Shown here in pieces: positions 3,076 through 15,277 of a stretch of DNA of 44,113 nt. Position 1 is the stretch's first letter, and every line of letters begins with the position of its first letter. The stretch spans positions 1 to 44,113 of the forward strand of contig SHYM01000003.1 in the NCBI GenBank assembly GCA_009692805.1. Reading direction: 5' to 3'. Position numbers and translations under genes: made by a program. Under the pieces are notes generated by a model. The model did no database searches. It was not told the origin of the DNA and saw only the letters and a program-made list of their open reading frames with translations. Origin of the DNA: Dehalococcoidia bacterium. GTDB lineage: Bacteria; Chloroflexota; Dehalococcoidia; SHYM01.

Positions 3076-3098
3076 CTACCTCGAAGGGGTCCCCCGGA

Positions 3099-3304
3099 GC
3101 CTTCCACAAAAACCGCACCCTGCCGGAACGGAGGGAGTGCAGAGTCCCGACGTGTCGGGACTCTGCCGGGGGCCAAAGGGGGGTCCCCCTTTCTCCCTCT
3201 TTTATGTTACCCCCTTCCTGGCCAGGAAGGGGGCCAGGGGGATGGTCGGTGGCATCCTTGGGGCAGAGCCGGATCGAAGACAACGAGAGCTTTTCGTGCA
3301 TGTC
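3099..3304 (+). repeat. MITE-like intergenic repeat, copy A
   Basis: This is one of four related elements in the window. The degenerate ends are GCCTTCCACAAAAA on the left and TTTTCGTGCATG on the right. Inside are a hairpin AGAGTCCCGAC/GTCGGGACTCT, a G-run/C-run hairpin (AAAGGGGGG/TCCCCCTTT), and the palindrome CCCCCTTCCTGG/CCAGGAAGGGGG shared with the other copies. It fills most of the gap between the lipoprotein stop and the kinase start. No flanking direct repeat is evident, so this may be an old, decayed copy. Confidence 0.8.
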
Positions 3305-3344
3305 GCTCTCCGGCAGAGGGTGCGAGGGTCCATCGCGCCGCATC

Positions 3345-6422: not shown

Positions 6423-6606
6423 TGGCTTTGCACAAAAGACCGCATTTTCTTCGATCTGGCTCTCCCTGAGGGTGCCCACGACCATCCCCCTGTCCCCCTT
6501 CCTGGCCAGGAAGGGGGACACCCCCTTCGACCCCCGGCAGAGGGAGGCCCCTCTGCACTCCCTCCCGCCGCAGGCGGGCCGGCAGGATGCCATTTTTTGT
6601 GCAAGC
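6423..6606 (-). repeat. MITE-like intergenic repeat, copy B
   Basis: This is the same element as copy A in the opposite orientation, about 184 bp. The ends are TGGCTTTGCACAAAA and TTTTTTGTGCAAGC, a clear terminal inverted repeat. Internal shared modules are the CCCCCTTCCTGG/CCAGGAAGGGGG palindrome, GGGGGACACCCCC, CCCCCGGCAGAG, and a CCCGCC/GGCGGG hairpin. It lies between the divergent mtnA and the plus-strand acyl-CoA synthetase gene. No target duplication is evident at these ends. Confidence 0.85.
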
Positions 6607-6660
6607 TAGCGTAGCCGAAGGGAGCTGGTCGAAGGGCGTGGGCAGCCACTCCCGTCCAGG

Positions 6661-10662: not shown

Positions 10663-11430
10663 CTATTCCACCTCTCGGTCGATGCGCTGGATGGCGCTGG
10701 CCCGCCCGGTGGCGCTGTCCACCTCGACCAGCACGGAGGAGAATCGCACCGGCCCCGCGGCGACCTCCAGGCGGTTGGGGAGCAGGGTGAGGAATCGCTC
10801 TAACACCGACTCCTTGGTGTCGCCGATGACGGAGTCCCGAGGCCCCACCATGCCCACGTCGGTGACGAAGGCGGTGCCTCCAGGCAGGACACGGGCATCG
10901 GCCGTGGGGACGTGGGTATGGGTGCCCAGGACGGCGCTCACCCGGCCTGCCAGGTACCAGCCCATGGCCTGCTTCTCGGAGGTGGCCTCGGCGTGAAAGT
11001 CCACCACGATCACCGGGGGGCGGTCGCTGAGGCCATTCAAGAACTGGTCCATGGTCAGGAAGGGGTGCTCCAGGGGCTGCATGAAGACCCTACCCATGAG
11101 ATTGACGACCATGACGCCACCCAACCGCAGGGCGCCCCGGCCGGGAGTCCCCGGGGGAAAGTTCAGGGGCCGTAGCAGGGGCACCTCCTGGTCCAAATAT
11201 GGCACGATCTCTTTCTGGTCCCAGATATGGTTACCGCTGGTCAGGACATCCACCCCGGACTCCAACAGCTCCTGGGCGGTGGCGGGCGTGATGCCATAGC
11301 CGCCGGCGGAATTCTCGCCGTTGGCGATGACGAGGTCTAGGCCGAGCTCCTTTCGCAAGGCAGGCACCAGGGCCCGCACGGCGCGCCGCCCCGGCCTCCC
11401 CACCACGTCACCTACCATCAAGATGCGCAT
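10663..11430 (-). CDS. ymdB: YmdB-family metallophosphoesterase (cyclic nucleotide phosphodiesterase)
   Basis: This family of calcineurin-like phosphoesterases hydrolyses 2',3'- and 3',5'-cyclic nucleotides. In Bacillus its gene is linked to rny, and the protein influences biofilm decisions. The metal-binding motifs are 'ILMVGDVVGRPGRRAV', 'NGENSAGGYG', 'TSGNHIWDQKEI', 'VVDFHAEATSEKQAMG' and 'GTHTHVPTADARV'. The 255-residue length is typical. It is downstream of rny on the same strand, the conserved neighbourhood, but here separated by about 300 bp containing repeat copy C. It may therefore be transcribed separately or by read-through. Confidence 0.93.
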   Translation of the reverse strand: MRILMVGDVVGRPGRRAVRALVPALRKELGLDLVIANGENSAGGYGITPATAQELLESGVDVLTSGNHIWDQKEIVPYLDQEVPLLRPLNFPPGTPGRGALRLGGVMVVNLMGRVFMQPLEHPFLTMDQFLNGLSDRPPVIVVDFHAEATSEKQAMGWYLAGRVSAVLGTHTHVPTADARVLPGGTAFVTDVGMVGPRDSVIGDTKESVLERFLTLLPNRLEVAAGPVRFSSVLVEVDSATGRASAIQRIDREVE

Positions 11431-11447
11431 CTACTCACTTAGGGACA

Positions 11448-11491
11448 GAGAGGGGCGAGGTAGCCCTAGTGCAGGGTTCCTCGCCCCTCTC
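11448..11491. repeat. Long inverted repeat beside repeat copy C
   Basis: Perfect 13-bp arms GAGAGGGGCGAGG (11448-11460) and CCTCGCCCCTCTC (11479-11491) flank an 18-nt loop in the leader of ymdB. It is separate from copy C, which begins at 11508. It could act as a terminator or attenuator in the rny-ymdB gap, but no T-tract follows on the minus strand. Confidence 0.6.
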
Positions 11492-11507
11492 CCTTCTGTA
11501 TGCTGGG

Positions 11508-11720
11508 TGGCTTTGCACAAAAAGCCGCATTTTCTCGTTCAGGCTCTCTCTATGAGTATGCCCGCAACCATCTCCCTGGCCCCCTTCCTAGCCAGGAAGG
11601 GGGTAGTTTGAATGGGATGGAAGGGGGACACCCCCTTCCATCCCCGGCAGAGTCCCGACACGTCGGGATCTGCACTCTCTCCCGCCGCAGGCGGGCCGGC
11701 AGGATGCCCTTGTGCAAAGC
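11508..11720 (-). mobile_element. MITE-like element, copy C, with 9-bp target duplication
   Basis: This 213-bp element has ends TGGCTTTGCACAA and TTGTGCAAAGC, whose 11-bp core GCTTTGCACAA is a perfect terminal inverted repeat. It is flanked by an exact 9-bp direct repeat TATGCTGGG (11499-11507 and 11721-11729), as left by transposition. Internal modules shared with copies A, B and D are the CCCCCTTCCT/AGGAAGGGGG palindrome, a GTCCCGAC/GTCGGGA hairpin, GGGGGACACCCCC, and a CCCGCC/GGCGGG hairpin. There is no coding capacity, so any transposase must act in trans. It sits just past the rny stop at 11736. Confidence 0.88.
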
Positions 11721-11735
11721 TATGCTGGGGCTGTC

Positions 11736-13283
11736 TTACTTGGCGAAGTCCACGGCCCGGGTTTCACGGATTACCGTCACCTTGATCTGTCCCGGGTACT
11801 GCAAGCTCTCCTCGATCTTTTTGCCGATGTCCCGCGCTAGCCTAACGATGCCTAGGTCATCGATGCGCTCTGGCTTCACCATAATCCGCACCTCACGACC
11901 GGCCTGGATGGCGTAGGACTTCTCCACGCCTTCAAAGCTGTTGGCGACCCCTTCCACGGCCTCGAGCCGCTTGAGGTAGCTCTCCAGCGACTCCCGGCGG
12001 GCGCCGGGCCGGGCGCCCGTTATGGCGTCGGCCGCGGCCACGATCCAGGTTTCAGCGCTCTCCACCCGTTCCAGACCTTCCAGGTGCCCGTCTTCATGGT
12101 GGCCGATGACCGCCTGGGCCACGGCCTTGGGCAGGCCAAAGCGTAGCATCAGGTCGGCCCCAATGACGTGGTGGGCCCCCTCCACTTCGTGGGTCAAGGC
12201 CTTGCCGACATCGTGGAGCAGCGCCCCCAGCTTGCAGACCTTGACGTCGGCGCCGATCTCGGCGGCCATCAAGGCGGCCAACTGCGCCGCCTGGACGCTG
12301 TGCTGCAGAATGTTTTGCCCGTAGCTGGTGCGGTACTTGAGCCGCCCTATGAGCTTCACCAGCTCCGCCGGAAGCCCTTGCACACCCAGCTCGTAGACGG
12401 CCTGTTCCCCTGCCTGTTTGATGGTGTTTTCCACTTCCTTCTCGGCCCGCTTCACCTCTTCCTCGATGCGGGCGGGCTGGATGCGCCCGTCCTGGATCAG
12501 CCTGGTGAGGGCGATCCGGGCCACCTCCCTACGGACCGGGTCGAAGCAGGAGATCGAGATCGCCCCGGGGGTATCGTCGATAACGAGGTCCACACCGGTG
12601 GCGGCCTCCAGGGCGCGGATGTTGCGCCCCTCGCGGCCGATGAGGCGGCCCTTCATCTCGTCGTTGGGCAGGGGCACGGCGGAGGTCGTTGTCTCCGATG
12701 AGACGTCGCCGCCCAGGCGCTCGATGGCGGAGGTGATGATTTCGCGGGCCCGCTCGTCAGCCTCCTCCCGGGTCTGGGTTTCGATCCTACGTACTAGGCG
12801 ATTGGCTTCGTTACGGACCTCGGTCTCGATCAAGGCCAGCATCTGGACCTTGGCCTGCTCCACGGTGAGCCCCGAGACGGCTTCTAGCTTGCTCCGCTGC
12901 TGCGCTTTCACGGCCTCGACCTCGGCCAGACGGTCGTCTATGGCCTTCTCCCGGTTGACCAAGCCTTGCTCGCGTCGCTCGGTCTGCTCAATCTTCCGGT
13001 CTAGGTTCTCCTCTTTTTGAACGGCTCTCCGCTCCTGGCGTTGCAGTTCGGCCCGGCGGTCCCGTAGCTCCGCCGCCACCTCACGTTCCCTGGCGCTGAT
13101 CTCAGCCTCGGCTGTCTCCTTGAGCTTGATGGCCTCGTTCCTGGCATCAAGGACGATCTTCCCGGCGTCTTTCTGGGCGGCTTGGAGCTTGCGGGACTGG
13201 AACATCTCCCTTAGGAGGTACCCCAAGCCTCCTCCCACGGCCAGGGCCGCCAGGGCCACGGCGACCACGATTCCTGGATTCAT
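11736..13283 (-). CDS. rny: Ribonuclease Y
   Basis: RNase Y is a membrane-anchored endoribonuclease that starts mRNA decay. The 515 residues have an N-terminal membrane helix ('VVAVALAALAVGGGLGYLL'), a long Arg/Glu-rich coiled coil to about 190, a KH domain with 'GRLIGREGRNIRALE' at 212-226, and an HD domain with the catalytic pair in 'LLHDVGKALTHE' at 356-367. The C-terminal region is typical. AGAGG precedes the ATG at good spacing. It has its own strong promoter (13359-13387) with a perfect palindrome just upstream. Downstream is ymdB, as in Firmicutes. This is a confident assignment. Confidence 0.97.
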   Translation of the reverse strand: MNPGIVVAVALAALAVGGGLGYLLREMFQSRKLQAAQKDAGKIVLDARNEAIKLKETAEAEISAREREVAAELRDRRAELQRQERRAVQKEENLDRKIEQTERREQGLVNREKAIDDRLAEVEAVKAQQRSKLEAVSGLTVEQAKVQMLALIETEVRNEANRLVRRIETQTREEADERAREIITSAIERLGGDVSSETTTSAVPLPNDEMKGRLIGREGRNIRALEAATGVDLVIDDTPGAISISCFDPVRREVARIALTRLIQDGRIQPARIEEEVKRAEKEVENTIKQAGEQAVYELGVQGLPAELVKLIGRLKYRTSYGQNILQHSVQAAQLAALMAAEIGADVKVCKLGALLHDVGKALTHEVEGAHHVIGADLMLRFGLPKAVAQAVIGHHEDGHLEGLERVESAETWIVAAADAITGARPGARRESLESYLKRLEAVEGVANSFEGVEKSYAIQAGREVRIMVKPERIDDLGIVRLARDIGKKIEESLQYPGQIKVTVIRETRAVDFAK

Positions 13284-14947: not shown

Positions 14948-14979
14948 GCCGCCACTTGTCGGGCTCGGGACGAGGGGTG

Positions 14980-15202
14980 GCCTTGCACGAAAAGTCGGTC
15001 AATGTAGCGGGAGTGCAGAGTCCCGACGTGTCTGGACTCTGCCGGGGGCCAAAGGGGGTGTCCCCCTTTCTCTGCTTTTATGTTACCCCCTTCCTGGCCA
15101 GAGCCTGCCCTGAGCCTGCCGAAGGGAAGGGGGCCGGGGGATGGTCGATGGCATCTTCAGGGAAGAGCCAGATCGAAGAAAACGAGACTTTTTATGCAAG
15201 GC
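14980..15202 (+). repeat. MITE-like intergenic repeat, copy D, interrupted
   Basis: The ends are GCCTTGCACGAAAAG and CTTTTTATGCAAGGC. Its inner order matches copy A: AGAGTCC.GAC/GTCtGGACTCT hairpin, AAAGGGGGTGTCCCCCTTT, then the CCCCCTTCCTGGCCA palindrome, which is split by 24 extra bases at 15101-15124. The rest of the gap to the fpg stop (15203-15277) shows nothing recognisable. Confidence 0.82.
15101..15124 (+). repeat. 24-bp mini-repeat inserted in copy D
   Basis: Two GAGCCTGCC units separated by CT and followed by GAAG interrupt the palindrome that is intact in copies A and B. Sequences of the type CCTGAGCCTGCCGAAGGG recur in many bacterial genomes. A degenerate relative (GTAGCCGAAGGG...GGTCGAAGGG) lies right after copy B, at about 6611-6637. 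Confidence 0.65.
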
Positions 15203-15277
15203 TGCGACGGGGCTAGATGGTGGACGTGGGCTCTCCACGAAGGGTCTCGGCGCCCCTGCGGCGGAAGCTCACGCTGC

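Follow-up and report, generated by a model that had tools for sequence, protein, structure and literature searches.

The window, which is the whole 44,113-nucleotide stretch of DNA analyzed here, comes from a Dehalococcoidia draft assembly (G000) of 1.35 Mb in 86 contigs that is 71% complete. Between its genes for RNase Y and a YmdB-like phosphoesterase lies a short repeated element, copy C. The features discussed below are as follows.

3098 to 3305 (approximate limits), reverse strand: copy A, with degenerate ends.
6424 to 6607, forward strand: copy B, same family as copy C, with a duplication that is not recognizable.
10663 to 11430, reverse strand: ymdB (YmdB-like phosphoesterase; PF13277, E 2.8e-102), downstream neighbor of copy C.
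11500 to 11508, forward strand: left target-site duplication, ATGCTGGGT (in the sequence-only reading, TATGCTGGG at 11499 to 11507).
11509 to 11721, forward strand: copy C, a miniature inverted-repeat transposable element (MITE) of 213 bp, delimited by frame comparison over 33 copies (11508 to 11720 in the sequence-only reading).
11509 to 11522, forward strand: left terminal inverted repeat, GGCTTTGCACAAAA.
11565 to 11603, forward strand: conserved core of 39 nt, CAACCATCTCCCTGGCCCCCTTCCTAGCCAGGAAGGGGG, which includes hairpin 1 (11580 to 11603); from alignment A1 and a class-wide search.
11614 to 11644, forward strand: hairpin 2, GGGATGGAAGGGGGACACCCCCTTCCATCCC; from the fold.
11647 to 11673, forward strand: hairpin 3, GCAGAGTCCCGACACGTCGGGATCTGC, with an inner stem interchangeable between copies; from the fold and alignment A1.
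11681 to 11695, forward strand: hairpin 4, CCCGCCGCAGGCGGG, found in only part of the copies; from the fold and alignment A1.
11708 to 11721, reverse strand: right terminal inverted repeat, CCTTGTGCAAAGCT (reverse complement, AGCTTTGCACAAGG).
11722 to 11730, forward strand: right target-site duplication, ATGCTGGGG (in the sequence-only reading, TATGCTGGG at 11721 to 11729).
11736 to 13283, reverse strand: rny (RNase Y; PF12072, PF01966, PF00013), upstream neighbor of copy C.
14979 to 15203, reverse strand: copy D (L205), same family, with flanks that match at 6 of 9 positions.

The rny stop codon lies 14 nt away from copy C and 5 nt away from the duplication. On the other side of copy C, toward ymdB, there is also a strong, G+C-rich hairpin (11446 to 11491) that is terminator- or attenuator-like. 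All the window copies are intergenic, and copy C is better preserved than the other three.

Copy C belongs to a family that is abundant in its genome. As a query against G000 it gave at least 56 matches among those listed, from 171 first-look candidates, and its 14-base end GGCTTTGCACAAAA has 97 matches at ≤2 mismatches (reversed control, 0). Once merged, the matches fall in 83 places; 80 of these were taken as short stretches, and in 33 of the stretches both ends are recognizable. An end of this family is therefore present at ≥80 places in the 1.35 Mb. The 33 full copies are 178 to 245 bp long, contain no transposase gene because they are too short for one, and differ from one another by roughly 10 to 20%.

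The sequence-only reading had rested on the 9-base repeat TATGCTGGG, which it took to be a target-site duplication marking the ends of copy C to the base. This repeat is indeed present exactly at 11499 to 11507 and 11721 to 11729 and has no other occurrence on either strand of the window. By chance, 0.27 matches would be expected, and two matches anywhere were seen in 5 of 100 shuffles; the weight of the repeat comes from its being placed exactly against the inverted repeats. When the best flank match was sought for all 33 copies, the family frame was a 9-bp duplication directly outside GGCTTTGCAC...GTGCAAAGC(C/T). The left end begins with G or A (GGC or AGC) in 31 of 33 copies and the right end finishes with C or T in 32 of 33, and therefore we place copy C at 11509 to 11721, where its flanks ATGCTGGGT and ATGCTGGGG match at 8 of 9 positions. 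The perfect TATGCTGGG pair represents this duplication displaced by one base to the left, so that it borrows the terminal T of the element (11721). Thus, the element is bounded by the repeat as had been proposed, but its true ends are one base to the right and the ninth matching base is its own. An alternative is that the original frame (11508 to 11720, with a perfect TATGCTGGG) applies to copy C, with the position of the ends varying by one base from insertion to insertion. This would give a 9/9 rather than an 8/9 match, and three other copies (L198, L202, and L217) also fit best with a one-base shift or a 10-bp repeat. However, it requires an extra T ahead of the left GGC and the loss of the last base on the right, against the end composition of nearly all copies, and since 15 of 33 copies finish with T, finding one at 11721 by chance would not be surprising. 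We consider this alternative unlikely.

The 9-bp duplication is a property of the whole family. With copy C excluded, the flanks of the other 32 copies match at a mean of 5.34 of 9 positions, compared with 2.85 for shuffled pairings (standard deviation, 0.26; maximum of 2000, 3.78). Per-site identity is 0.594 for a duplication length of 9 bp, compared with 0.42 for 8 bp, 0.44 for 10 bp, and a background of ~0.27. In the family frame, 9 of 33 true flank pairs match at ≥8 of 9 positions, compared with 0.09% of mismatched pairs (33 × 32), and a 9/9 match anywhere within ±1 base is found in 8 of 33 true pairs and in 0.19% of mismatched pairs (33 × 32). Because true pairs are so far above mismatched pairs, we conclude that the TATGCTGGG repeat is not a chance match, as had been argued from copy C by itself. 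In the strict frame, about half of the full copies match at fewer than 6 of 9 positions, with a one-base shift in some and decay in others. Exact duplications are found around L161 (GGCGCGGCC), L183 (CCCCTGGAG), and L224 (AGTCGCCCC), and that of L226 (CCTAACGGC) is exact once the right end is moved by one base. The duplications of L191 (ACGCCAGCC), L199 (CTCCCAGGT), and L192 (GGCTGGATG) serve as illustrations only, since these copies were selected with the duplication in the score. An apparent 9/9 pair at L350 was set aside because the sequence taken for its left end has a poor end score and may be due to chance.

The only genome of the same family that was available for comparison, G001 (a Chloroflexi groundwater metagenome-assembled genome of a different genus; contig JACQGV010000184.1), has a YmdB that is 85% identical to that of the window, and its rny-ymdB gap lacks the element. 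This gap is 82 nt long, compared with the 83 nt predicted for the window (305 − 222), and it contains CCAGC once, whereas the window gap contains it twice. The single TATGCTGGG that had been expected in a relative without the element is not visible in G001 because the gap is too diverged. The alignment of the two gaps is weak (2.3% of shuffles are as good), and therefore the argument rests on gap length and on the absence of the element. In class relatives other than G001, the gene order at this site is lost or the gap cannot be aligned. At another site (L306), G001 does carry a copy, and the 9-bp duplication around it, GGTGCGGGC, is exact. Unless G001 has lost copy C, the insertion took place after the two genomes had split.

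A candidate mobilizing enzyme comes from a different family within the class. In G016 (L333/L339), an insertion sequence of 2140 bp has the ends GGCCTTGCACAATAAG...CTTTTTGTGCAAGGCC and a 9/9 duplication, TACCTTTAA, and its open reading frame encodes 409 amino acids with a DDE_Tnp_1 domain (E 1e-19) together with a SWIM zinc finger. The best named model for such DDE_Tnp_1/SWIM transposases is NF033579 (IS5 family), at 116.9 to 131.4 bits, which is under its cut-off of 140 bits. Relatives of the 409-amino-acid transposase are present in 24 of 393 class genomes, with none in G000 or G001, and several of them adjoin GGC(C/T)TTGC-type ends. In G338 (L348), a 9/9 duplication surrounds 2736 bp with the ends GGCTTTGCCTCAG and GAGGCAAGGCC. 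Another genome from a different family, G037, has elements of 110 to 250 bp whose ends are the same but whose interiors are unrelated, again with 9-bp repeats (L247, L248, and L250; e.g., AGGACTTGC in L250). Searches of the 71%-complete G000 found no match to PF01609, PF00872, or NF033579 and no relative of the 409-amino-acid transposase; the PF13737 profile is uninformative here, since it matched none of the control genomes. Genes adjacent to end-like matches in G037, G016, and G001 proved to be ordinary host genes.

We infer that copy C was moved by a transposase of the DDE_Tnp_1/SWIM kind rather than by a different one with similar ends, and that the source of this transposase either lay in the missing part of G000 or has since been lost. 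Acting in trans, such a candidate DDE transposase would have placed copy C between rny and ymdB by cutting the target with a 9-base stagger, and gap repair would then have produced the 9-bp duplication; the gap before insertion would have been about 83 nt long, with one ATGCTGGG(T/G). Since no such transposase was found in the 71%-complete assembly, the insertion can be called recent, as it had been, only relative to the other window copies; the divergence among family copies also bears on this point. ISAba12 is grouped with IS903 (IS903-like group, IS5 family), and an IS5-family enzyme of the IS903/ISAba12 type is an example of a different transposase with similar ends that might have moved copy C. 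The ISAba12-type ends GGCTTTGTTGCACAAA(G), together with 9-bp duplications, resemble GGCTTTG---CACAAA (PMC6382973), and both the duplication length and the DDE_Tnp_1 domain agree with an IS5/IS903-like system. Against this, GGCTTTGCACAAAA lacks the TTG of GGCTTTGTTGCACAAA, the score for the IS5 model NF033579 stays under its cut-off and that model has no match in G000, and the G016 element, which is from the same class, fits the ends without the 3-base difference. We therefore regard an origin through such an enzyme as quite unlikely and favor the DDE_Tnp_1/SWIM kind.

The interior of the element is highly structured. Copy C folds into four hairpins inside paired ends (z score for the whole element, −6.7), and in an alignment of 24 copies (A1), column identity is 96.6% in the core, 78 to 79% in the arms, and 82 to 88% at the ends. 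The strength of these hairpins, a conservation that is highest in the central palindrome, and the intergenic positions of the window copies would all be in keeping with a REP/BIME-like palindrome cluster or a structured RNA that involves no DDE transposase and has a flanking repeat only by coincidence. This is contradicted by the statistics for the 9-bp duplications across the family, which are far above chance; a REP/BIME would be a palindromic repeat without flanking duplication. The inverted ends, the matching insertion sequence with a duplication of equal length, and the empty site in G001 also argue against it, and an Rfam search returned 0 families. We consider this explanation highly improbable.

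Copy C and its relatives have terminal inverted repeats, a duplication of constant length, a short and gene-less body, and many dispersed copies, and they share their ends with an autonomous element, the G016 insertion sequence from another family of the class. We are highly confident that copy C is a gene-less MITE with imperfect inverted ends, GGCTTTGCACAAAA, transposed by a DDE enzyme with a 9-bp duplication. The element is thus of an ordinary kind, and the duplication around copy C is genuine.

The hairpin core, which occurs with at least two other kinds of ends in class relatives, is a more interesting lead than the MITE itself. The core motif CCATCCCCCTN{0,4}CCCCCTTCC is found in 38 of 393 class genomes (32 genera; reversed control, 0); since part of these are looser, C-rich relatives, 38 is the maximum for true homologues. 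Outside G000, the core is mostly framed by ends other than GGCTTTGCAC. It lies between CTAGCAGG...GAAAAA ends (CTAGCAGGNTGNTGAAAAA-type) in L067, L069, and L288 and also within G000 in L299 (G000:C2:8830-9230), in which a core of the copy C family sits inside a MITE-like element with quite different ends. Such ends are probably served by a transposase of the IS5_4 type found in G001 (L332). In L063 and L279 (G019) it lies between GAGNNNGTTTANNAAC ends and is identical at 39 of 39 positions. The core is 97% constant, far above the 78 to 88% of the ends and arms. Tentatively, and with slightly less than even confidence, we suggest that the hairpin core is a passenger module of several unrelated transposition systems and that its constancy points to maintenance and swapping by something beyond transposase recognition; gene conversion, a role in the host, and template switches from one hairpin to another are examples.

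Several further features of these elements were observed. In G001, the core is inside MITE-like elements with quite different ends (L302, L304, and L305). The same genome has a likely complete insertion sequence (L332:188-1547, on G001:C157) with the ends CTAGCAGGCTGCTGAAGAA...TTTTTCAGCAGCCTGCTAG and a 374-amino-acid transposase that scores 262.6 bits, over the cut-off of the IS5_4 model; it is probably the partner of the CTAG-ended elements. In L161, L205, L232, and L233 (G000) and in L302 and L304 (G001), the hairpin 1 loop contains a nested repeat of ~25 bases, CTTCGGCAGGCTCAGGGCAGGCTCT. In alignment A1, the inner stems of hairpins 2 and 3 are interchangeable cassettes (GTCCCGACACGTCGGGATC, ATCCCGAGCATCGGGACT, and a short GGGA..CCC) that occur in both orientations. 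Left or right arms differ among copies with the same core (L182 and L183 versus others; right arms of L184, L205, L208, and L306), and therefore the elements look mosaic.

Starting from one 9-base repeat, the analysis defines a transposon family, places its ends to the base, gives it a 9-bp signature, and proposes a candidate transposase. Hairpins of this family are densely scattered between the genes of a small genome, and the common core makes it possible to test whether the interiors of mobile elements move between different transposition systems. A literature search found no described MITEs in Dehalococcoidia. The unclassified DDE_Tnp_1/SWIM insertion sequences (L333/L339 of G016, and L348) share GGC(C/T)TTGC... 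ends and the 9-bp duplication with the copy C family but differ from it in being 2.1 to 2.7 kb long and in carrying a transposase gene. In Acinetobacter, MITEAba12 and ISAba12 have the ends GGCTTTGTTGCACAAAG and 9-bp duplications (PMC6382973). Like the copy C family, MITEAba12 is short and gene-less, with ends that start with GGCTTTG and contain CACAAA and with 9-bp duplications (PMC6382973). It is mobilized in trans, by the DDE transposase of an element that shares its ends, whereas for the copy C family such an enzyme is a candidate only. The two also differ by the 3 bases TTG in their ends; MITEAba12 is 113 bp long, 78% A+T, and homogeneous among copies, whereas members of the copy C family are about 200 bp long, G+C-rich, folded into four hairpins, and 10 to 20% apart. 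We treat the resemblance between these sequences as a lead and not as membership. Correia/NEMIS, RUP, and other bacterial MITEs are likewise nonautonomous, under about 200 bp, mostly intergenic, and equipped with inverted ends, duplications, and stable hairpins (PMC2229807). These elements mostly have TA ends and are A+T-rich (PMC2229807), in contrast to the copy C family, which makes 9-bp duplications of mostly G+C-rich targets.
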